Positions 6,264 to 33,361 of a stretch of 39,873 nucleotides of DNA are shown piece by piece. The notes beneath the pieces were generated by a model, which was not told the DNA's origin, ran no database searches, and was given only the letters and a program-made list of their open reading frames with translations. The translations under genes were made by a program, and so were the position numbers. Numbering within the stretch: the stretch's first letter is position 1; the number at the start of each line of letters is the position of its first letter. The stretch is from an uncultured Verrucomicrobia subdivision 3 bacterium (lineage in GTDB: Bacteria; Verrucomicrobiota; Verrucomicrobiia; Limisphaerales; UBA11358), in NCBI GenBank assembly GCA_903827955.1, contig CAIKKJ010000051.1:1-39873 (forward strand), read 5' to 3'.

Positions 6264-7523
6264 ATGGCAAACTCATATTCCGAACGCCGCGTGGTCATCA
6301 CGGGCCTGGGCTGCGTCACGCCGCTCGGCAATGACCCGGATACTTTCTGGAAAAATCTCATCGCCGGCCAATGCGGCATTGACAAAATCACCGCGTTCGA
6401 TGCCTCGCCTTACGACACGAAAATTGCTGGCGAAGTGAAAAACTTTGACCCGACGCCCGCGTTTCCCTCGCCGAAAGATGTCCGCCGCGCCGACCGCTAC
6501 TCGCAATTTGCCATCTACGCCGCGTGGACGGCGCTGAAGGATTCCGGCCTCGACCTCGCGAAGGAAAATCTGGATGAAATCGGCGTGTTCCTCGGCTCCG
6601 GCATCGGCGGCCTTACGACGACCAGCGATCAGTTGAAGATCTTGAACGAACGCGGTCCCAGTCGCGTCTCGCCGTTCACGATTCCCATGTTGATCTCCAA
6701 CATGGCATCGGGGCTCGTCTCGATGTATTTCAATCTGCGCGGGCCGAACTTTGCCACCTGCTCTGCCTGCGCCACCGCCAACCACGCCATCGGCGAGGCC
6801 TGGCGCACCATCAAGGCCGGCGACGCCCAAATCATGTTTGCCGGCGGCTCCGAAGCGGCGGTCATCCCCATCGGTATCGCCGGCTTCTGCGCCATGCGCG
6901 CCATGAGCACGCGCAATGACGATCCCAAAGCAGCGTCCCGACCGTTCGACAAAGACCGCGACGGCTTCGTCATGGGCGAAGGCGCGGGCGTTTTGGTCTT
7001 GGAAGAATTGGAGCACGCCAAGAAACGCGGCGCGCAAATCTATTGCGAAATTTCCGGCTACGGCAACACCGCCGACGCGCATCACCTCACCGCGCCGTCA
7101 CCCGGCGGCGAAGGCGCGGCGCGTTGCATGAAAATGGCGCTCCGCACCGGCGGCCTGAACCTCACGGACGTCACCTACATCAACGCCCACGGCACGTCCA
7201 CGCCGCAAGGCGACGTCTGCGAAACGCAGGCCATCAAATCCGTTTTCGGCGACCACGCGAAAAAACTCGTCGTCAGCTCCACCAAAGGCGCGACCGGCCA
7301 CATGCTCGGCGCGGCTGGCGCGGTTGAAATGACCGCCTGCGCGCTGGCCATCAAGCACGGCATCGTGCCGCCGACCATCAATTACACCACGCCTGACCCC
7401 GAGTGCGATTTGGATTACGTCCCGAACACCGCGCGGCAGATGCCGGTGAACGCCATCGTGAACAACTCCTTCGGCTTCGGCGGGCATAACTCGACGATTG
7501 CGGCGAAGAAGTTTGTAGGGTGA
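6264..7523 (+). CDS. fabF: 3-oxoacyl-[acyl-carrier-protein] synthase II
   Basis: FabF condenses acyl-ACP with malonyl-ACP. The 419-residue protein has the ketosynthase fold with the nucleophile in SACATAN (Cys169), the catalytic His309 in NAHGTSTPQGD, and Lys341/His346 in KGATGHMLGAAG. The Cys-His-His pattern makes it FabB/FabF type rather than FabH. The N-terminus RRVVITGLGCVTPLG and C-terminus NSFGFGGHN are typical. It lies directly after acpP. One base separates its stop from the following small gene, suggesting cotranscription. Confidence 0.97.
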   Translation: MANSYSERRVVITGLGCVTPLGNDPDTFWKNLIAGQCGIDKITAFDASPYDTKIAGEVKNFDPTPAFPSPKDVRRADRYSQFAIYAAWTALKDSGLDLAKENLDEIGVFLGSGIGGLTTTSDQLKILNERGPSRVSPFTIPMLISNMASGLVSMYFNLRGPNFATCSACATANHAIGEAWRTIKAGDAQIMFAGGSEAAVIPIGIAGFCAMRAMSTRNDDPKAASRPFDKDRDGFVMGEGAGVLVLEELEHAKKRGAQIYCEISGYGNTADAHHLTAPSPGGEGAARCMKMALRTGGLNLTDVTYINAHGTSTPQGDVCETQAIKSVFGDHAKKLVVSSTKGATGHMLGAAGAVEMTACALAIKHGIVPPTINYTTPDPECDLDYVPNTARQMPVNAIVNNSFGFGGHNSTIAAKKFVG

Positions 7524-7524
7524 A

Positions 7525-7998
7525 ATGAAACCTGAGCCGCCAAATAAAACGGGCGTGCAAAAGACGATCATCATATTTGCGGCTGCAATTACTTTTATAA
7601 TTGCAGCCGTTTTTATTGCTGGTTTTATTTGGTGGCACACTCCACCAAGGTTTGTTGTTGAGGCAGATGCAGGATTCAAGAAAGCTAAAAGCACCATTGA
7701 CCCGGAAGTGGTGCGGGCGTGGGCTTTAGAATGTATCCAGAAAAACGCCTCCCGAAAAGAGATCGCTAATTTAATGCCTGAATCAATGCGGAATCTTTAT
7801 GGTGAACCTCCAGATGCTTGGGTGGATGGCTCCAGCTTAAACTTGTTGTGGGGCGGCGGCTTTTTCCACTGGGGATTTTACATTGGAAATACAAATGAAA
7901 CCATGCCGTTCAATTCAGAAAACCACGAATACCCATACAATTTTGAATGGCGACCGGGAATTTATTACACGCGAGAAGCAAAGTGGGAACTACAATGA
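7525..7998 (+). CDS. Single-span membrane protein of unknown function
   Basis: I do not recognise a named family. The 157-residue product has a basic N-terminus, one hydrophobic helix (about residues 16-36, TIIIFAAAITFIIAAVFIAG) and an extracytoplasmic-type soluble part containing GGGFFHWGFYIG and an aromatic-rich end (PYNFEWRPGIYY). The base composition is clearly AT-richer than in fabF and the phosphorylase. Its stop overlaps the next gene's start (ATGA at 7995-7998), so the downstream phosphorylase is probably translationally coupled to it. With the gene at 4748 it makes two orphan membrane-protein genes placed in this metabolic block. Confidence 0.75.
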   Translation: MKPEPPNKTGVQKTIIIFAAAITFIIAAVFIAGFIWWHTPPRFVVEADAGFKKAKSTIDPEVVRAWALECIQKNASRKEIANLMPESMRNLYGEPPDAWVDGSSLNLLWGGGFFHWGFYIGNTNETMPFNSENHEYPYNFEWRPGIYYTREAKWELQ

Positions 7999-9302
7999 AC
8001 TTTCTTTCACTCATCGAATCCAAACGCGAAGGAAAAATTCTCGCGCCGGAACAGATTCAGGAAATCATCCACGCGTTCACCGCCGGGAAAATTCCCGATT
8101 ACCAGATGTCGGCCATGCTCATGGCCATCTTCTTTCGCGGCCTGAACACCGCCGAGACCACCGCGCTCACGCTCGCCATGCGCGATTCCGGCGACGTGCT
8201 AAAATTTCCCAAAGACAAACGGCCGCTCGTGGACAAACATTCCACCGGCGGCATCGGCGACAAAGTTTCGCTCCCACTCGCGCCGTTGCTGGCGTGCCTC
8301 GGCTTTCGCGTGCCGATGATTTCCGGTCGCGGCCTCGGCATCACCGGCGGCACGCTGGACAAACTCGATTCCATCCCCGGTTTCAAAACGCTTTTGCCCG
8401 CCGCGCAAATCACGAAGCTCGTGCAACACGTCGGCTGCGTGATTTGCGGCCAGACGGACACGATGGTTCCTGCCGACAAAAAAATTTACGCCCTCCGCGA
8501 CGCCAGCGGAACCGTGCCGAGCATCCAGTTAATCACCGCCTCAATCCTTTCCAAGAAGCTCGCTGAAAATTTGGATGCGCTCATCCTTGACGTGAAATTC
8601 GGGTGCGCGGCGTTCATGCAAACCAAGGCCGACGCGCGCAAGCTCGCCAAGGCAATGGCCGCGCTCGGCAATGAATGCGGCACGAACACCCGCGCGATTT
8701 TGACGGACATGAACACACCGCTCGGCCGCGCCGCCGGTAACTGGCTGGAAGTCAAAGAAAGCGTTGAGTGTCTGGAGGGCAACGGTCCGTTGGATTTGTT
8801 GGAGCTCGTGGTGGATTCCGCCGCACATCTGTTGGTGCAGACCAAGAAATCGAAGTCGCTCGCGGCCGCGCGGGCGTTGGCGACCGAATGTTTGCAATCT
8901 GGCGCGCCGCGTAAAAAATGGGATGAGATGATCGTCGCGCAAGGCGCGGACTTGAAAGCTTTCAACCGCAAGCTGGCGCTGGATTCGACCGCGAAAGTTG
9001 CCGTCGAAGTGAAGTCGGACAAAGCCGGTTACATTTCCAAATGCGACGCCCGCATCATCGGCGAAGTCATCCGCGACCTCGGCGGCGGGCGGCTCACGAA
9101 GGAATCAGCTATCAATTTTGACGTGGGTGTTGACTGCATTGCCAAGCCCGGCGAGCGCGTGGAAAAATCTGCAATCCTTTGCCGTGTTCACGCTGGCGAT
9201 TTGGAACCGATGAAAGTGGCGGTTGCCCGATTGAAAATGGCATTTGAGATTTCCGCCCGGAAAATTTCCGCCGCGCCGTTGATTCAAGAAATTATCGGCT
9301 AA
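7995..9302 (+). CDS. deoA: Thymidine/pyrimidine-nucleoside phosphorylase
   Basis: The enzyme splits thymidine, deoxyuridine or uridine with phosphate into free base and (deoxy)ribose-1-phosphate, a pyrimidine salvage step. The 435-residue length fits DeoA (about 440) and Pdp (about 433). The phosphate/nucleoside site KHSTGGIGDKVS and the family signature SGRGLGITGGTLDKLDSI are present, and the C-terminal PYNP domain includes GGGRLTKESAINFDVG. I chose ATG 7995 (MNFLSLIESKREG), which overlaps the previous stop by 4 bases; the frame extends 16 codons further upstream within the previous gene. DeoA and Pdp cannot be told apart here by eye. Confidence 0.92.
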   Translation: MNFLSLIESKREGKILAPEQIQEIIHAFTAGKIPDYQMSAMLMAIFFRGLNTAETTALTLAMRDSGDVLKFPKDKRPLVDKHSTGGIGDKVSLPLAPLLACLGFRVPMISGRGLGITGGTLDKLDSIPGFKTLLPAAQITKLVQHVGCVICGQTDTMVPADKKIYALRDASGTVPSIQLITASILSKKLAENLDALILDVKFGCAAFMQTKADARKLAKAMAALGNECGTNTRAILTDMNTPLGRAAGNWLEVKESVECLEGNGPLDLLELVVDSAAHLLVQTKKSKSLAAARALATECLQSGAPRKKWDEMIVAQGADLKAFNRKLALDSTAKVAVEVKSDKAGYISKCDARIIGEVIRDLGGGRLTKESAINFDVGVDCIAKPGERVEKSAILCRVHAGDLEPMKVAVARLKMAFEISARKISAAPLIQEIIG

Positions 9303-9317
9303 TTTTGTTAATTCTGC

Positions 9318-9611
9318 TCAAGCAATCTTCTCCCAGATCACGATGTCCGGCATCCCGACGGCCAGTTCATCCATGCGTGGCAGCAAGACTTGGATGTGCG
9401 GCATCTGCAAATGCGCGTCGAGCGCAGCCTTGGTCGTCCAGTTTTCGTGGAAGAGAAATTTTCCCGGATCGTCTGGCGACTGGTGCAAATCGTAATTGAG
9501 GCAGCCCGCTTCTTTGCGCGTCGGCGCGACGAGGCTGATGAGGGCGCGCTTCAATTCCTCGGCCTTGCCCGGCTTGGCCTGAAACGTGGCGACAACGGTG
9601 ATGGTTTTCAT
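9318..9611 (-). CDS. ABM-domain (antibiotic biosynthesis monooxygenase-like) protein, putative quinol monooxygenase
   Basis: A 97-residue protein beginning MKTITVVATFQAKPGKAEELK, with EAGCLNYDLHQSPDDP and FLFHENWTTKAALDAHLQMPH. This is the ABM/YgiN-type dimeric alpha-beta barrel pattern, known from small quinol monooxygenases and heme-degrading enzymes. The longer frame upstream (to 9707) is translated repeat plus the end of pyrF, so ATG 9611 is preferred. It ends 15 bases from the convergent phosphorylase gene and follows pyrF on the same strand. The substrate is unknown. Confidence 0.85.
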   Translation of the reverse strand: MKTITVVATFQAKPGKAEELKRALISLVAPTRKEAGCLNYDLHQSPDDPGKFLFHENWTTKAALDAHLQMPHIQVLLPRMDELAVGMPDIVIWEKIA

Positions 9612-26675: not shown

Positions 26676-26691
26676 ACGGCTTTTTAGGACA

Positions 26692-26726
26692 GGATTAACC
26701 GGATTTTACAGAAAACCGGATAATCC
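26692..26726. repeat. GGATTAACCGG inverted repeat after the DMT transporter
   Basis: GGATTAACCGGATTTT (26692-26707) pairs with AAAACCGGATAATCC (26712-26726) around ACAG, with one mismatch and one bulge. It looks like a member of the short palindromic intergenic repeats common in such genomes. There is no T-run after it, so a terminator role is uncertain. The rest of the 26676-26837 gap shows nothing else recognisable. Confidence 0.5.
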
Positions 26727-26837
26727 TTGATAGAAATTCGCCAGTCCGCTTTCATCAAAGCCAATTGACAAATGCCAAAGTGAAAACAACCGTGCACGCG
26801 TCTGTGCGCGCACTGCGGCCGAATTATTGTTAGGCGC

Positions 26838-27278
26838 ATGAGCACCACCACCTATTTCAGCCTTTGTCTGGCTTTCACTTCGGCAGTCATTTTGTCCGGC
26901 TGCGATGCGCGTCCAAAACCGAAATTTCATTCACCTCGCCGGATTTTGGCACTTGAGTTTCGCCCGCCCACTCCACCACCTATCGTCACCCATTTTTTTC
27001 AGGACACAAACAATGACGAGCCAGATTTCTTTGATGGGACTTTCGGCGATTTCAAGGGCAGTATGTCTGCGACCTCGCTTTCCTCAAATGCGGTGGCATG
27101 GCGTGTGCAGATTGCGCTCAACGGATCGTGTGGTGGTTCTGACCTCCACCAAACCAACGAGATTGAGATTGCCTTTCCACAAAGCCAGAGGCTTTCATTG
27201 GGTCAGATCGGTTCTGTTACCGGGTGGTTTTTTTCAGATGCCGAGTTGCTGGATTATGATAAGAGAACATCAAAATAA
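26838..27278 (+). CDS. Putative lipoprotein of unknown function
   Basis: A 146-residue protein with a lipoprotein signal: hydrophobic helix and LSGC lipobox with Cys22. The rest has no family I recognise; it contains PPTPPPIVTHFFQD, DGTFGDFKGSM and a C-terminal half with IALNGSCGGSDLHQTNEIEIAFPQSQ. It is distinctly AT-richer than its neighbours, with a different codon use. The gene stands alone between the DMT transporter and the [2Fe-2S] ferredoxin, in the same direction. Confidence 0.55.
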   Translation: MSTTTYFSLCLAFTSAVILSGCDARPKPKFHSPRRILALEFRPPTPPPIVTHFFQDTNNDEPDFFDGTFGDFKGSMSATSLSSNAVAWRVQIALNGSCGGSDLHQTNEIEIAFPQSQRLSLGQIGSVTGWFFSDAELLDYDKRTSK

Positions 27279-27345
27279 ATGCGATGCGTTTAGTTTCACA
27301 TTTGTAGTGTGACAATTGGTCAGTTATAGGCTTCGTTAAAACACC

Positions 27346-27705
27346 ATGACCCCCGAACTCCAATCCGCCGCCGCGCTCGGCCTGGAAAAATTTCAGCGCC
27401 ACATCTTCCTCTGCGTGGACGCGGAAAAACCCAAGTGCGCCCCGCCAGAAGCCACCACGGCGGCGTGGGAATTTTTGAAGGCGCGGCTGAAGGAGTTGAA
27501 CCTCGTCGGCGCGGAGCCGCTGGTCTATCGCACCAAGGCCGGTTGCCTGCGCGTCTGCACGCGCGGCCCAATCGCCGTGGTCTATCCCGAAGGCGCGTGG
27601 TATCACTCGTGCAACCCTACCGTGCTAGAACGCATCATTCAGGAACATCTTATAGGCGGTAAAATCGTAGAAGACTTTGCTTTTGCCAGAAATCCGCTTG
27701 TCTGA
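27346..27705 (+). CDS. [2Fe-2S] thioredoxin-like ferredoxin
   Basis: A 119-residue protein of the thioredoxin-like [2Fe-2S] ferredoxin family. The cluster ligands are Cys23 in HIFLCVD, Cys31 in KPKCAPP, and Cys67/Cys71 in GCLRVC, in the usual order. The segment [14 protein letters not shown] is the conserved end of the fold. The C-terminal stretch [21 protein letters not shown] is also encoded a second time just downstream (27717-27839). From about 27600 the codons become clearly AT-richer (cttata, gtagaa, gctttt), unlike the first part. Function: electron carrier; the partner is unknown. Confidence 0.85.
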
Positions 27706-27716
27706 ATTATTGTCCG

Positions 27717-27839
27717 GTGAAACGAAACAACTATTATCACAGTTGCACGCCGGAAGTGTTGGAGCGCATCATCCAGGAACATTTGATCGGCGGAAATATC
27801 GTGCGCGCCTTCGCCTTCGCGGAAAATCCGCTGCGCTGA
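27717..27839 (+). pseudogene. Duplicated 3' end of the [2Fe-2S] ferredoxin gene
   Basis: The frame from GTG 27717 to the stop at 27837-27839 encodes 40 residues that match the end of the preceding ferredoxin: [18 protein letters not shown] and IVRAFAFAENPLR against [18 protein letters not shown] and [13 protein letters not shown]. The copies are 134 bases apart and in different frames. This copy is GC-rich, like the front part of the ferredoxin gene. The likely reading is a remnant, perhaps of the original 3' end after a replacement event. It has no cluster-forming start, so it cannot be a working ferredoxin. Confidence 0.8.
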
Positions 27840-27902
27840 ATATTTTCCCGCTCGACTTTCCAAATCACCCCGCGCAGATTTTCGCATCTAACTGGGAAAA
27901 TT

Positions 27903-28517
27903 ATGGCGCGACTCCTCATCCAGACCGCCGGTCTCGGCAAATCGGCCGTCGAATTGCGCATGGGCATCAACCGCATCGGCCGTGACCGGGAATGTGAGAT
28001 TCATCTGCCGCACGCCAGCGTCTCCTGGTTTCACGCCGAACTTGCGCTCACCAGCGATGGCGTGCACCTCACCGACTGCCATTCCACCAACGGCACTTTT
28101 CTTGACGGCCAGCCGTGCGCCGCCGCGTGGCTGGTCCCCGGCCAGCAACTGCGCTTTGGCAGCATTGAAACTCTGGTTGAATCCACCGACGCGGTCATCG
28201 CCATCCCGCAATTTGAACGTGGCGAACCCGCGCCCGCCGCGCCCGTCATTTTGGAAAATGGCCAGACCGCCTGCCGCCGCCACACCGAGACCGCCAGCAC
28301 TTTCTGCTGTCCGCAGTGCAAGGAGCTGATGTGCAACCGCTGCGTGCGCGTCATCCGGTTGAAAGGGCGTTCGCCGCACTACCTTTGCTGTCTGTGCAGC
28401 CATCCCGTTGAACGCATCGAAGCTCTCGTGCCGAAAACGAAAAAAAGTTTCTTTGCCACGTTGCAAGAAACCGTCCTGTTAAAATTCAAGCATCCACGCA
28501 ATGCCGGGAAGAAATGA
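27903..28517 (+). CDS. FHA-domain protein with C-terminal zinc-finger-like region
   Basis: A 204-residue protein. Residues 1-92 are a forkhead-associated domain that binds phospho-threonine: IGRDRECEIHLPHASVSWFHAEL has the Gly-Arg, Ser and His of the binding loop, and STNGTFLDG is the second hallmark. Residues 121-170 contain a Cys/His cluster (Cys124, His127, Cys135, Cys136, Cys139, Cys144, Cys147, Cys162, Cys163, Cys165, His167), B-box or zinc-ribbon-like. The C-terminus is basic. No kinase gene lies nearby. The FHA call is firm; the metal site is inferred from spacing only. Confidence 0.88.
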   Translation: MARLLIQTAGLGKSAVELRMGINRIGRDRECEIHLPHASVSWFHAELALTSDGVHLTDCHSTNGTFLDGQPCAAAWLVPGQQLRFGSIETLVESTDAVIAIPQFERGEPAPAAPVILENGQTACRRHTETASTFCCPQCKELMCNRCVRVIRLKGRSPHYLCCLCSHPVERIEALVPKTKKSFFATLQETVLLKFKHPRNAGKK

Positions 28518-28527
28518 AATTGATCGT

Positions 28528-29544
28528 TTAACCAACTTTTAAAAACTTCCCCGCCATTTTTTCGAGCGCATCAATCCACGCCGGATGTTCGTTCATGCAC
28601 GGAATGCGCGTGAACTCCTGACCGTTGCCAGCCATAAATTCTTCGCAGCCGCGAATGCCAATTTCCTCAATCGTCTCCAAACAGTCCGAGACGAACGCCG
28701 GACAGATCACGAGCATTTTCTTTTTTCCCTCCGTCGCGAGGCGCGGCAATTCGTAGTCCGTGTAAGGTTTCAGCCACGGATCTTTGCCCAGCCGCGATTG
28801 AAACGACACCGACCATTTGCCCGCCGGCACGCCCGCTTTTTCGGTGAACAGCGCAGCAGTGCGATAACATTGTGCGCGGTAGCATTGTGCGTGCGCGGGA
28901 CTCGGCGTTTCGCAGCAATTCGGCGTGGCTAGACAATGACAGCCCGTGGTGTCGGACTTTTTGATATGCCGCTCCGGGATACCGTGAAAGCTGAATAGCA
29001 GATGGTCGTAATCTTTTTTGAAAAAATTCGCCGCGCTCGCCACCAGCGCCGCGATGTAATCCGGCTGGTCATAATACGGCGGCTGCACCGTGACTTTCAT
29101 TTGCGGCGCAAGTTTCGCCACGACTTCCTGCACGCGCACGACGGCGGTTTCGTAACTCGACATCGCGTAATGCGGAAACAGCGGGATGAGCAGAACTTCC
29201 GTCGCGCCCTTCGCCGCCAGTTTTTTCACGGCGGATTCGATGGACGGATTTTGATAACGCATCGCCAGTTCCACCGGCACGCTGACGCGCTTTTGCAACA
29301 AGGCCTGCACATGCTGGCTCGTGACGACGAGCGGTGAACCTTCCTTGGTCCAAACTTTTTCGTAAGCGTGGCCGGATTCCGCCGGGCGCTTGATCAAAAT
29401 CAAACCGACGAGCAAGCGGCGCAGCGGCCACGCCACGTCAATCACGCGACCATCCATCAGAAACTCGTTCAAATACCGCCGCACATCCGGCACCGACGGC
29501 GAGTCCGGCGAACCGAGATTGACCAAAAGAATTGCTTTGCTCAT
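28528..29544 (-). CDS. hemH: Ferrochelatase
   Basis: HemH inserts iron into protoporphyrin IX, the last step of heme synthesis. The 338-residue protein has the N-terminal LLVNLGSPDSPSVPDVRRYLNEF, LLIPLFPHYAMSS, the catalytic His187 in FSFHGIPERH and SFQSRLGKDPWLKPYT, and ICPAFVSDCLETIEEI with the metal Glu. Between residues 202 and 226 lies a Cys-rich stretch (Cys202, 204, 210, 211, 221, 226) that may bind an iron-sulfur cluster, as seen in some bacterial ferrochelatases. It is the last gene of the heme operon, about 90 bases after hemG. Confidence 0.95.
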   Translation of the reverse strand: MSKAILLVNLGSPDSPSVPDVRRYLNEFLMDGRVIDVAWPLRRLLVGLILIKRPAESGHAYEKVWTKEGSPLVVTSQHVQALLQKRVSVPVELAMRYQNPSIESAVKKLAAKGATEVLLIPLFPHYAMSSYETAVVRVQEVVAKLAPQMKVTVQPPYYDQPDYIAALVASAANFFKKDYDHLLFSFHGIPERHIKKSDTTGCHCLATPNCCETPSPAHAQCYRAQCYRTAALFTEKAGVPAGKWSVSFQSRLGKDPWLKPYTDYELPRLATEGKKKMLVICPAFVSDCLETIEEIGIRGCEEFMAGNGQEFTRIPCMNEHPAWIDALEKMAGKFLKVG

Positions 29545-29550
29545 AAAAAT

Positions 29551-29623
29551 TCAGCCACAGATTTGCACAGATGGACACAGATGCAAAAATTTCTTTTGAG
29601 AAATTATCTGTGTTTCATCTGTG
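29551..29623 (-). repeat. Inverted pair of CACAGAT repeat units between hemG and hemH (copy 5)
   Basis: Read on the minus strand, ATCTGTGTCC, ATCTGTG, CAAATCTGTGGCTGAA precede hemH, matching the TTCGTG/TCTGTG repeat family. The left part, 29566-29582, pairs with 29606-29623 (17-18 bp with one bulge), and AATTTCT (29588-29594) pairs with AGAAATT (29599-29605) around TTTG. The whole can fold into a long hairpin. It begins 6 bases before hemH's ATG in the transcript. Confidence 0.6.
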
Positions 29624-29634
29624 AGAATCGGCGG

Positions 29635-30993
29635 CTAAAAAAGTTTCCCCACCCGCTCGGCGATGTTCACACCCGAAACAATCGAGTCGCCCAGTGAAAC
29701 GCCGTCGCGATAATGGCCGGCGAAAAACAGATTGGGCACCTTGGCCTCAATGTCTTTGAGCAGTTCACGGTATTTGCCGTAGCCGACGTTGTATTGCGGA
29801 ATCGCCTTCGGCCAAAATGCCGTGTGCACAAAAGTGGGTTTACCGCGCACGCCGAGTAACCCGCGTAAATCCGCCAGCACCACCTCGACCAATTTGTCGG
29901 CGGGCAGCGACGCGAGTTCGGGGTAACGCGCGCCACCGACGTAACTGGTCAAATTGACCTGACCATCTGGCGCGCGATTTGGAAATAGTGCCGAGGAAAA
30001 AATCGTGCCGAGAATTTTGAAGCCTTCAATTTTGGGAATCAACATTCCAAAACCTGCACACGAATGCGCCACATCTTCGCGACGAAAACCGAGGACGACG
30101 CTCGCCACCGGCGGATAACTGATTTCGGAAAACGTTCCCAGATCCAAAGGCAATCGCGCCTCGACGTTGAGCTGCGCCAGCCGGTGCGCCGTGCCGCAAT
30201 AAATCACCGCGCCAAATTCCGTCTCGCCCTCTGTTGTAGTCACGCGCCAACCGTTAGCCGTTTGCGCGAGCTTCGTCGCGGGCGAATTTAATTTTAACGA
30301 ACTTCCGAGCTGCGCCGCGAGCGTATCGGGCAATACTTGCAAACCTTCATCGAACGAAAATTTAGCCGCGCGATCTTTCGCGACTTCGCCGGATTTCTTG
30401 CGGTCGCGGGCGCCAAAAATTTGACCCTTGATCATTGAACCGTAATTATCTTCGAGCGCCTTGAGCTTGGGGAAAGCGTGCGGCAGCGAGAGTTTGTGCG
30501 GATCGCCGGCGTAAATGCCGGCCACCAGCGCATCAATCGCGTGGTCGAGAAATTCCTGGTTGAAGCGGCGCACGACAAACTGCGCGATGCTTTCTTCCAC
30601 GCCGTCGCGGCGCGGTTTTATGAATGGTTCGCGCAAAACCGCGAGCTTGGCTTTGGCGGTGAACAGCGGTGTTGAAAAAAATCCAAGCGGCTTGCCGGGC
30701 ATCTCAATCGGCCGACCATAGCGCACGACGTAACGCGCTTCGGCTTTGGGATCGGTGTTGAGCTTGCGCGATTCCAGCCCAGCGTCGCGCACGAGCTGCG
30801 CAATTTTCGGCGACGTTTCGAGAATGGTGTTCGGCCCGAACTCGGCGAGAAAACCGTCTTTGCGAATGGATTGAATCACGCCGCCAACGCGCCCGCCCGC
30901 CTCATAAACCGTGACCGGCACGCCGTTGCGTTTCAGATAAAACGCGGCGGTCAGCCCCGTGATACCAGCTCCGATGATGGCGACAGATTTCAT
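29635..30993 (-). CDS. hemG: Protoporphyrinogen oxidase (oxygen-dependent type)
   Basis: This flavoprotein oxidises protoporphyrinogen IX to protoporphyrin IX; the oxygen-dependent FAD form is also called HemY. The 452-residue protein has the FAD dinucleotide motif VAIIGAGITGLTAAFYLKRNG, VYEAGGRVGG, the amine-oxidase-like body, and the C-terminal FAD region GNYRDGVSLGD-like HYRDGVSLGDSIVSG. The start at 30993 overlaps the ATP-grasp stop by 4 bases, and hemH follows. Together with hemE, hemN and hemH it completes protoheme synthesis from uroporphyrinogen III. Confidence 0.94.
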   Translation of the reverse strand: MKSVAIIGAGITGLTAAFYLKRNGVPVTVYEAGGRVGGVIQSIRKDGFLAEFGPNTILETSPKIAQLVRDAGLESRKLNTDPKAEARYVVRYGRPIEMPGKPLGFFSTPLFTAKAKLAVLREPFIKPRRDGVEESIAQFVVRRFNQEFLDHAIDALVAGIYAGDPHKLSLPHAFPKLKALEDNYGSMIKGQIFGARDRKKSGEVAKDRAAKFSFDEGLQVLPDTLAAQLGSSLKLNSPATKLAQTANGWRVTTTEGETEFGAVIYCGTAHRLAQLNVEARLPLDLGTFSEISYPPVASVVLGFRREDVAHSCAGFGMLIPKIEGFKILGTIFSSALFPNRAPDGQVNLTSYVGGARYPELASLPADKLVEVVLADLRGLLGVRGKPTFVHTAFWPKAIPQYNVGYGKYRELLKDIEAKVPNLFFAGHYRDGVSLGDSIVSGVNIAERVGKLF

Positions 30994-31988
30994 ACGATCG
31001 GTTTATTTTGCAACAACGCGCGGGATTTTTCCAGATGCCGCCGCAACGCCGCCGCGTAGATGCCTTTTAATCCGCGTGGCGGCGTGCGGAAAAAATGCGC
31101 GTCCAACAGATTCCAGCCTGCCAGCAGAATCTTGTTGGCGTGCGGATGCAGCGGATCATCAAAACCACTGGCGGGAAACACAGTGATTTCCCCGCCATAC
31201 AAAGTGCGGCCATTCCAAAAAAAATCATACCGCGCATAGTCCACGCCCTGGCTCAATCGTCGCGCAAACGTCACCGCCTGTCGATACGGCTCCAGAATGT
31301 CCGCAAGTGCCGGACTGGCCGAAATGATACTGTCAGCCGAATCGGTCATGCCCCAAGTAGGCCGGCCTTCGGCGTCGAGGTAAAAATGCCATTGCTCCGG
31401 CGTCTTGGCCTTGAGCAGCACGGAGCCTTGTATCGCGTGGCCATTGCTGGCGCGGATGTTGAACTCCACTAGTTCGCCGATGCCATCCAGTCGAATCGTC
31501 TCCTCGACAAAAATTTTCCGCTCCACGCGAAAGTAAGGCCATTCGCACGTCGCCGCACCATATTTGGTTTTCAGCCAGCGGGAAGATAATTTTGTCAGCG
31601 CCGCCCGGTCGCACGGCTGGCCGCGCGTGTGAAAATTAAAACCGCAGCCGTGGTTCGCCTTCACAAAAACATCCTGCCGCAGCAGCTCGTCGGGAATGTC
31701 TTTTGCCTCCGTCCCAACCCAAAGCGTCGCGGGCAGCGGCAGATCAGGGCAGACGCGCTGCACAAACGCCTTCGATTGCAGCTTGTCGGAGCACACCTCA
31801 AAATGCGGATTGCGATCCACTGCCTTGCGCCAGGACATTCGCTCGGAAAAACGCACCGGCCGCGCGAGATCCAGCGACCGGCCGTTCAGCCGACGGTAAG
31901 AACGCACCAGCTTCCAGTTGGTCAGTCGCAAATACACGTTGGCCACCGCGAAAATAAAATCGTCAGTGAACATCGCGGTTCGCTTCAA
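30990..31988 (-). CDS. TupA-like ATP-grasp protein inside the heme operon
   Basis: This 332-residue protein fits the TupA-like ATP-grasp family, usually found in polysaccharide or peptide-linked polymer loci. Visible signs: FSERMSWRKAVDRNPHFEVCSDKLQSK near the N-terminus, the nucleotide-binding VFVKANHGCGFNFH, VERKIFVEETI, and DYARYDFFWNGRTLYGGEITVFPASGF, which holds acidic metal residues. ATP-grasp enzymes typically form an amide or thioester bond by ATP-driven acyl-phosphate chemistry. It overlaps hemN by 4 bases upstream and hemG by 4 bases downstream, so it belongs to the heme operon. No signal peptide is seen, so it acts in the cytoplasm. Its substrate is unknown. Confidence 0.82.
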   Translation of the reverse strand: MKRTAMFTDDFIFAVANVYLRLTNWKLVRSYRRLNGRSLDLARPVRFSERMSWRKAVDRNPHFEVCSDKLQSKAFVQRVCPDLPLPATLWVGTEAKDIPDELLRQDVFVKANHGCGFNFHTRGQPCDRAALTKLSSRWLKTKYGAATCEWPYFRVERKIFVEETIRLDGIGELVEFNIRASNGHAIQGSVLLKAKTPEQWHFYLDAEGRPTWGMTDSADSIISASPALADILEPYRQAVTFARRLSQGVDYARYDFFWNGRTLYGGEITVFPASGFDDPLHPHANKILLAGWNLLDAHFFRTPPRGLKGIYAAALRRHLEKSRALLQNKPIV

Positions 31989-33361
31989 ATCGTCTTCGAA
32001 TGCCGCCGCTCATTCGCCGCGCCGAGCGTGTTGTCGAAACACATCGCGATGTTGCGGATAAAAAGGCGGCCGGAGTTCGTCACTTCCAGGCCACCGGGAG
32101 TTTTTTTCACCAACCCGTCGGCGATGAAGGGCGCGAGCGCCGAAAGTTCCTTGTCAAAATGCTGCTCGAAGTTGATGCCAAGTTTTGCGCTCATCGCGGC
32201 GAAATCGAGCGAGAGATCGCACATCGTCCGCATGATGGTTTCACGGCGGATCAAATCTTCAGCGGTCACAAAATAGGCTTTGTGCAACGGCGGTTTGCCG
32301 GCGTCCACTGCGGTCTGATACTTCGGCAGTTCTTTTTCGTTCTGCCAATACGCTTCGGGAATCTGCGAAATGGCGCTCATGCCAAAGGAATAAATATCCG
32401 AGCCGGCGCGCGTGCTGTAGCCCTGAAAATTCCGCTGCAATTTTTTCTCGCGCTGCGAAATCGTCAGCTCGTCGTTCGGCTTCGCGAAATGATCCATGCC
32501 GATGTAAACGTATTGGTCATCGGCGGTGAGCCGTTCGATGACGAGCTTAAGCACTTCGAGTTTGGATTCCGGCGTGGGCAGAATCTTGTCTTCGAGAATT
32601 TTTTGCGCGGGCTTGATCCACGGCACATGCGCGTAGCTGAACACGGCAAGACGGTCGGGTTTCATCTCCAAAACCGTGTTGAGCGTTTCATTGAACGTCT
32701 CCGGCGTCTGATGCGGCAAGCCGTAAATCAAATCCAGATTGATGGAGCCGAAACCCTGTTCGCGCATCCAGTCCATTGCCTGCTGCGTCATTTCGCGCGG
32801 CTGGATGCGGTGAATCGCCTCCTGCACTTTGGGATTAAAATCCTGCACCCCCATTGAGGCGCGATTGAATCCGATTTCTTTCAGCGCCACGACGTGATCG
32901 CGTGTGAGCCGACGCGGATCAACCTCAACGCTGGCCTCGATGTCCGGCGCGAACGTGAAATGTTTGTGGATGATGTCGCCGAGCCGGCGTAGTTCATCAG
33001 GCCGCAGAAACGTCGGCGAGCCGCCGCCGAAGTGAAGTTGCACGGCTTTGCGGCCTCGGTTCAAACGCGGTGCGAGTTGCGCGACTTCGCGGCCAAGATA
33101 ATCAATGTAATCCTTGCCCTTGTCGTGATTGGTCGTGATGACGGTGGTGCAGCCGCAAAACCAGCAGAGCGATTCGCAAAACGGAATGTGAAAATAAACC
33201 GAAAGGTCGCGCGGCGACTGGTTGTTGCCCTCGATTTTTTCCGAAAGCTGCTCCCACGTCACGGCGTCGGTGAACTTGGTCGCGGGCGGATAGCTGGTGT
33301 AACGCGGCCCGGCCACGTTGTATTTTTTCACCAAGTCCAGATCTACGTTCAGCGTTTTCAT
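31985..33361 (-). CDS. hemN: Oxygen-independent coproporphyrinogen III oxidase
   Basis: HemN decarboxylates coproporphyrinogen III to protoporphyrinogen IX by radical-SAM chemistry. The 458-residue protein has the cluster motif FCESLCWFCGCTT (Cys62, Cys66, Cys69), at the same residue numbers as in E. coli HemN. YFHIPF before it and HFGGGSPTF, VEVDPRRLT, NRASMGVQDFNPKVQEAIHRIQP and YGLPHQTPETF are family segments. The C-terminal HemN domain is present (RRETIMRTMCDL). The length is that of genuine HemN, not the shorter HemW. It overlaps hemE by 4 bases and the ATP-grasp gene by 4. Confidence 0.96.
   Translation of the reverse strand: MKTLNVDLDLVKKYNVAGPRYTSYPPATKFTDAVTWEQLSEKIEGNNQSPRDLSVYFHIPFCESLCWFCGCTTVITTNHDKGKDYIDYLGREVAQLAPRLNRGRKAVQLHFGGGSPTFLRPDELRRLGDIIHKHFTFAPDIEASVEVDPRRLTRDHVVALKEIGFNRASMGVQDFNPKVQEAIHRIQPREMTQQAMDWMREQGFGSINLDLIYGLPHQTPETFNETLNTVLEMKPDRLAVFSYAHVPWIKPAQKILEDKILPTPESKLEVLKLVIERLTADDQYVYIGMDHFAKPNDELTISQREKKLQRNFQGYSTRAGSDIYSFGMSAISQIPEAYWQNEKELPKYQTAVDAGKPPLHKAYFVTAEDLIRRETIMRTMCDLSLDFAAMSAKLGINFEQHFDKELSALAPFIADGLVKKTPGGLEVTNSGRLFIRNIAMCFDNTLGAANERRHSKTI

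Follow-up and report, generated by a model that had tools for sequence, protein, structure and literature searches.

Which of two 3′ ends belongs to a ferredoxin gene, and how the gene came to have both, are the questions raised by a 39,873-nt stretch of DNA (the window) from an uncultured Verrucomicrobia subdivision 3 bacterium. The window spans an entire contig (G000:C51) from a 3.86 Mb genome in 213 contigs; this genome is labelled G000 and, judged by its named relatives in the reference collection, belongs near Limisphaerales / Verrucomicrobia subdivision 3. A first-pass annotation had suggested that an incoming homologous end displaced the original one, making a chimeric gene and leaving the old end as debris.

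A ferredoxin gene with two 3′ ends

The gene at 27346–27705 (+) encodes a 119-residue ferredoxin of the thioredoxin-like [2Fe-2S] type. The product matched PDB 1f37, the Aquifex aeolicus protein with the thioredoxin-like [2Fe-2S] ferredoxin fold, over residues 18–114 (phmmer E 2e-13), and cysteines 23, 31, 67, and 71 aligned with the four cluster cysteines of the Aquifex ferredoxin. All four lie in the front of the gene (codons 1–85, 27346–27600, +; native style, GC 0.655) and precede the duplicated part. Unlike the Aquifex protein, that of the window has an extra cysteine at residue 89, inside the segment read as swapped, and it stays under the curated NCBIfam cut-offs (47.7 of 150 bits for NF041612 and 35.7 of 195 for NF041613). 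A Pfam scan of the product gave no match at E up to 0.1. A whole-genome search found no other ferredoxin of this kind in G000 (next match E 0.68), and it detected a second copy of the 3′ end directly 3′ of the gene (match 27687–27833, E 1.3e-12). The usual downstream neighbour, an FHA-domain gene, follows at 27903–28517 (+).

The in-frame copy, c1, comprises codons 86–119 and the stop (27601–27705, +), starting with the TAT at 27601, while the second copy, c2, runs from 27735 to the end of its stop codon at 27839 (+). The recurrence first noted by eye, of residues 86–119 at 27732–27839 with about 24 of 34 identical, was confirmed, in that codons 86–118 recur from 27735 on with 27 of 33 residues identical, the codons showing 6 non-synonymous and 14 synonymous differences. 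The offset of 134 and the shift out of frame were likewise confirmed, being exactly 134 nt and the −1 frame relative to the gene. Over 99 nt, nucleotide identity between c1 and c2 of the same genome was 0.697 in G000 and 0.727 in G013 (CAIXFY010000058.1), a genus member with the same arrangement. The described contrast of an AT-rich first copy with a second copy keeping the GC-rich style of the gene front also held, with a GC of 0.448 in c1 and 0.562 in c2; the spacer between them has 0.345. GC at third codon positions (GC3) fell from 0.82 in the 5′ part to 0.42 in the 3′ part, and this drop of 0.40 was the largest among 39 genus genes (median drop 0.09, sd 0.08). In G013, GC3 was 0.49 in c1 vs. 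0.67 in the gene front.

The 29-nt spacer (27706–27734, +) has an equal length in G013, and 20 of the 29 positions are identical. Its block GTGAAACGAAACAAC (27717–27731) is identical at 14 of 15 positions between the two genomes, the preceding 11 nt at only 5 of 11, and the conserved block GTGAAACGANACAAC begins at an in-frame GTG. At the putative illegitimate junction, only TAT is shared at 27732–27737 as read by eye.

Behind c2, and not behind c1, stands the motif CTCGAC (27851–27856, +). Of 41 genus genomes, 21 have it no more than 90 nt from the ferredoxin end vs. 0.9 expected by shuffling, with G000 and G013 scored from the c2 stop; it lies 11 nt (G000) and 8 nt (G013) after that stop and is absent from the spacer after c1. 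In those 21 genomes it sits 5–76 nt after the ferredoxin end, often ahead of the FHA gene, and is perhaps a promoter element of that gene.

The interval between the EamA transporter gene and the ferredoxin gene holds an AT-rich insert (26676–27345, +; GC 0.478) with a lipoprotein-like open reading frame at 26838–27278. This gap is 674 nt long here, compared with 15–155 nt in 27 of 29 genomes and 4714 in G063. The annotation had taken the AT-rich segment next to the lipoprotein region as support for an acquired piece; the insert is absent from G013, however, and it is an event separate from the proposed end swap. An exact 10-nt repeat, GAATTATTGT, occurs at 26821–26830, just before the lipoprotein frame, and at 27704–27713, across the c1 stop and the spacer start, and may be a chance occurrence. 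By eye, the insert looks cassette-like, carrying GTTAGGC near 26830 and, at 26761–26784 / 27289–27319, inverted arms that match imperfectly. Two integron integrases over the curated cut-off are encoded in the G000 genome (C164:1204–2151 and C105:38047–38928; L265, L266), and an integron integrase of the relative G017 is followed by a 21-nt tandem repeat array (L267, G017:C49, about 2271–2501). A simple attC rule, untried on known attC sites, gave no site either in the window or near the integrases of four IntI loci, the folds tested were no better than those of shuffled sequences, and the direct repeats at three of the four IntI loci were not attC-like. An integron origin of the lipoprotein insert or of the spacer was rejected on this attC evidence.

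Origin of the two ends

When the copies were compared over 99 nt with single-copy ends of relatives, the closest resemblance was found for c2. The identity to the end of G062 was 0.869 for the c2 of G000 and 0.838 for that of G013, compared with at most 0.778 (G000) and 0.727 (G013) for c1 and any of 54 single-copy ends; the two c1s were 0.808 identical to each other. Consistently, a maximum-likelihood tree of 41 ends paired the two c1s (100/90) and placed the c2s among the native ends (G005 and G070, which lack the anchor motif, were omitted from the 5′ and 3′ trees). Since c2 is nearest to the native single-copy ends, falls among native ends in the tree, and is the copy followed by CTCGAC, it is the native end in its native setting, in agreement with the expectation that the second copy should be closer to the native gene of the clade. 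By composition and tree position c1 is the odd copy, best read as an incoming, putatively foreign end, and c2 is best read as the native end displaced.

Simple tandem duplication, under which both copies should be equally close to the native family, was evaluated from the same trees, in which c2 stood with the native ends and c1 did not. A recent duplication in the window's own genome was rejected, as c1 and c2 of G000 are not each other's closest relatives (AU p 0.038 for the two as one clade among the 41 ends, log-likelihood 30 lower). An old one, in which the last 134 nt were duplicated in place in a common ancestor of G000 and G013 and then diverged, other lineages losing one copy, is only disfavoured, and we consider it somewhat unlikely. 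The unit boundaries are as a tandem duplication would leave them, and neither a clade of all four copies (p 0.119) nor one of the G013 c1 and c2 (p 0.34) was rejected. However, the rejection of the G000 pair opposes it, and it leaves unexplained why the codon style of c1 departs from that of the gene front in both genomes when c2 is native-like.

The synonymous distances were less decisive. In detail, the proportion of synonymous differences (pS) between c1 and c2 was 0.72 in G000 and 0.89 in G013, and values as large were reached by 35 and 5%, respectively, of 666 native pairs from 37 ends, which puts the G000 distance inside the native-pair range, as an old duplication would allow. The mean pS to native ends was the highest of 41 for the c1 of G013 (0.87) and the seventh of 41 for that of G000 (0.75). 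Synonymous distance singles out the G013 c1 but not the G000 c1, which weakens it as an argument.

The first-pass annotation had also expected c1 to be closer to a different lineage, and here the search came back empty. No donor of c1 was found at E up to 1e-9 among 320 genomes of the order and 387 of the phylum, which are overlapping sets; the best matches within the order were G013 (80% over 133 nt), G017 (84% over 85 nt), and G145 of another family (79% over 100 nt), and the 387 phylum genomes held none better. Strong matches to c1 plus spacer in 97 relatives were all ferredoxin genes, with no further copies elsewhere. A 27-nt spacer match in G029 lies inside a frame that reads, by eye, like an ABC transporter ATPase and looks like chance. 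A phage or plasmid source of c1 was also rejected, given 0 matches in a pattern scan of viral contigs, 2 matches at 32–34% identity in a phage collection, and 97 records, all below 60%, in a plasmid collection. Of the proposed incoming end, then, the parts concerning a native c2, its retained CTCGAC, and the exclusion of a recent duplication stood, and no source lineage was found.

The same layout in a non-sister species

G013 has the same 134-nt unit and 29-nt spacer as G000, with no indels between them. The C-terminus of the ferredoxin was matched in 43 of 49 genus genomes (own included), and 41 of these 43 had one copy at the locus, G000 and G013 being the only ones with two; a second match in G005 was weak and on another contig (E 0.07). 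Across the order, 241 of 320 genomes matched at E up to 0.01, and two matches were found in three, namely G000, G013, and G087, the second match of the last being a 47%-identical stretch on another contig. The expectation that close relatives have only one copy was thus correct for most of the genus and failed for G013, which shares both layout and boundaries. An assembly artefact that joined the ferredoxin ends of two strains might be suspected in an assembly of 213 contigs whose relatives are mostly metagenome bins; the layout recurs, however, in the separate record CAIXFY010000058.1, and at 70% identity c1 and c2 differ by much more than strains would, which makes such an artefact almost inconceivable.

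G000 and G013 are not sister species. The RpoB tree placed G000 with G067 (97/97) and G013 with G017 (100/99), and a G000+G013 clade was rejected (AU p 0.006); this tree had 17 rows, without G006, taken from 18 long matches selected among the 24 of 27 genomes that matched, and G029 had no RpoB match. Quick trees of EamA, HemH, HemG, and HemN also separated the two genomes. In the tree of the whole ferredoxin protein, c1 included, G000 and G013 lay closest to each other by path, though this was not strongly supported. Non-sister species with the same layout indicate, therefore, that the arrangement is old or has moved between species, and is not private to one genome.

A recent transfer between G000 and G013 appeared unlikely and was set aside, because the synonymous divergence of the c1 pair is as large as that of other genes. 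In detail, pS was 0.61 for the c1 pair and 0.64 for the c2 pair, vs. 0.44–0.57 for other genes of the two species, a similarity which would also suit the old duplication. The event is not datable by synonymous sites, because pS in seven compared species pairs was 0.39–0.60 regardless of kinship. Similarly, the short sequences do not settle a single vs. a repeated origin, because a G000+G013 clade was rejected neither for the 5′ part of the ferredoxin (p 0.43; 37 rows, without G001 and G062) nor for c2 (p 0.41).

The displaced end itself shows no decay. A candidate open frame of 40 codons that contains c2 (27717–27839, +) starts with the GTG at 27717, 11 nt after the c1 stop, and the matching frame in G013 is likewise open from GTG to stop. 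Between the two genomes, c2 had a pN of 0.117 and a pS of 0.636, the differences falling 2, 5, and 16 on the three codon positions, and its pN/pS of 0.18 lies inside the range of native pairs (median 0.246, 5–95% 0.13–0.38; 666 pairs). In neutral simulations with 23 substitutions, none of 20,000 runs kept the number of changed residues down to 6, and a stop arose in 47%. The earlier reading of c2 as debris did not hold up, and its description as broken is apt only in that c2 lacks the gene front, since its own frame is open with a possible start.

If c2 was displaced once and long ago, it has been under selection since, and so may be translated; if it was displaced recently and separately in each lineage, the constraint would have been inherited from the time within the intact gene. 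The first case would suit a maintained small gene, a stand-alone 40-residue C-terminal ferredoxin segment translated from the GTG by reinitiation behind the ferredoxin stop, which is compatible with the chimeric origin preferred here and which we regard as unlikely. The frame open in both species, the spacer conservation that sets in at that very GTG, and the simulated rarity of so few changed residues argue for it. Its presence in 2 of the 43 matching genus genomes only speaks against it, as does a recent independent displacement, which would leave the same constraint, and by eye no ribosome-binding site was seen.

Possible exchange of the ferredoxin end and its parallels in relatives

Related events at the same locus were found in other genomes. 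The ferredoxin of G005 shares 82% identity with one from G160, which belongs to another family, against no more than 72% with those of the genus members listed; together with about 70 nt upstream, the G005 gene aligns at 75% over 383 nt to that of G160. From 120 nt past the G005 stop, 39 nt of native 3′ end can be recognised (score 26.5 vs. at most 12 in 123 shuffles), with CTCGAC behind them. We infer from these alignments that a foreign whole ferredoxin took the locus and a native 3′ remnant was kept, a xenologous displacement in situ. As in the window, foreign ferredoxin sequence would stand at the locus with a native 3′ remnant ahead of the native downstream region; in the window, however, only the 3′ third would have been exchanged, with the old end preserved in full, whereas G005 would have lost its entire native gene apart from a short remnant.

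G160, whose genome is 73% complete, has a cut locus (L242, G160:C485:5000–14455, 6859–9456). Its native ferredoxin matches that of the congener G058 exactly to TGGTAT, codon 86, after which foreign DNA follows, with a complete ferredoxin in inverted orientation and an ORF with weak STAND/AAA matches; a second ORF overlaps the end of the STAND/AAA ORF and runs off the contig. This insert is possibly a defence island. The far side of the insert lies beyond the contig end, and the lost native end of the G160 ferredoxin was not found.

Further relatives gave smaller indications. G017, the RpoB sister of G013, has one copy, whose codons 90–109 have their closest match in the c1 of G000 (0.85 over 60 nt; the next reached 0.80), which hints at movement of c1-type ends. 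In G006, a 15-nt possible native end lies 3 nt after the stop (score 15, shuffles up to 12), which is a weak lead. In G034, two contig ends (L038, L039) interrupt the ferredoxin gene near codon 54 and carry inverted terminal-looking sequences; the split looks like an insertion sequence and, because the gene is interrupted there, the protein may be dispensable in G034.

The haem genes next to the locus, hemH, hemG, and hemN (28528–33361), group G000 with G029 and G059, and RpoB, which has no G029 row, groups it with G067. The HemH of G000 is 97% identical to that of G029, and the HemH, HemG, and HemN trees place G000 near G029 and G059. Because the haem trees disagree with RpoB, on which G029 is not directly comparable for want of a row, the haem cluster or neighbourhood has likely been exchanged between species.

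For the window, we give about an even chance to the gene being a chimera formed in a single old event, with c1 as an incoming homologous end and c2 as the native end pushed downstream. The incoming fragment would have been the 3′ end of a differently coded homologous ferredoxin together with about 29 nt of its own downstream flank. It would have joined the native gene at codon 86 (TAT CAC) through homology at the upstream junction, the downstream junction being illegitimate and falling at the same codon of the native end, so that c2, its stop codon, and the downstream motif would have been pushed 134 nt downstream and not deleted. This one old event may have taken place in an ancestor or in another genus member. 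The lineages of G000 and G013 would then have acquired its product either vertically, with other lineages losing it, or through ordinary exchange of the locus. One-sided recombination of this kind is the most economical account of the arrangement, and that the boundaries coincide in two non-sister species speaks for one event, inherited or passed on. Single origin by descent needs several losses, because nearly all matching genus genomes have one copy at the locus.

The chimera is supported by the closeness of c2 and the distance of c1 to native single-copy ends, the tree position of c1, the largest GC3 drop of the 39 genes, the top-ranking synonymous distance of the G013 c1, the identical 134- and 29-nt layout, CTCGAC behind c2, the parallel in G005, and the apparent exchange of the neighbourhood between species. 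Against it count the failed search for a donor or a free relative of c1 plus spacer, the unrejected four-copy clade, and the unremarkable synonymous distance of the G000 c1, seventh of 41 and matched by 35% of the native pairs. The lack of decay in c2 is odd for old debris.

A more daring alternative, which gains some weight from G160, is site-specific integration, in which codon 86 would serve as attachment site (TGGTAT^CAC) for a mobile element equipped with a ferredoxin 3′ end of its own, and c1 with the 29 nt would be what is left of that element, or the 134-nt unit would itself be mobile. We rate it as quite unlikely. It would account for identical boundaries in two non-sister species, for the end of the G160 homology to G058 exactly after TGGTAT, and for the conserved 15-nt block beside the junction. 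However, no integrase was noticed beside the gene in the ORF translations of 11 genomes read by eye, no longer element with c1 and spacer at its ends was found in 97 relatives or in the 320 order genomes, and it is unlikely that two insertions decayed independently to an identical length of 29 nt. Further, the inserted ferredoxin of G160 is inverted, and G005 has a different boundary; the integration point is the same in G000, G013, and, on one side only, G160. A diversity-generating retroelement with template and variable repeat was considered from a reading of the two copies by eye, whose differences are not confined to adenines.

Among known systems, the chimera most closely resembles, by analogy, homology-facilitated illegitimate recombination and displacement of the e14/icd type. 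The former has been proposed for Rhs loci and for arrays of T6SS effector and immunity genes (PMC5361080), where, as would be the case here, a new part arrives at a conserved upstream anchor and the old 3′ part is kept downstream, giving orphan 3′ regions; in contrast to those cases, the ends here are homologous, the protein stays nearly the same and is a redox protein instead of a toxin system, and only 134 nt are concerned. The junction of the window lies inside homology, with c1 joining the front in frame at codon 86 and c2 complete. In Escherichia coli, prophage e14 integrates in icd and provides the gene with a new 3′ end, the native one (163 bp) staying separated from it (PMC6379469). 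Similarly, c1 would be a supplied end in frame, with the native c2 separated from the gene, but the two ends in G000 and G013 have only 29 nt between them, and no prophage or integrase, and no element that would supply c1 was seen. A literature search that combined Limisphaerales, horizontal gene transfer, and ferredoxin found no paper.

A bolder extension would make codon 86 a recurrent integration point of undescribed Limisphaerales mobile elements, which would carry a recoded ferredoxin end in G000 and G013 and an entire replacement ferredoxin in G160 and G005, and so spare the host the loss of the protein, the displaced end in G000 and G013 being kept as a small translated gene; we hold this to be improbable. 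Should codon 86 prove to be a genuine integration point, Verrucomicrobiota would be expected to harbour mobile elements not yet described.

Cases in which part of a gene is replaced and its former end persists have been discussed for toxin systems and prophage sites, and the case described here concerns a small electron carrier. With two non-sister species that share the same boundaries, and an old end that has not decayed, the order of events becomes approachable from sequence. If the displaced end is translated, the locus would exemplify gene fission brought about by the replacement of an end.
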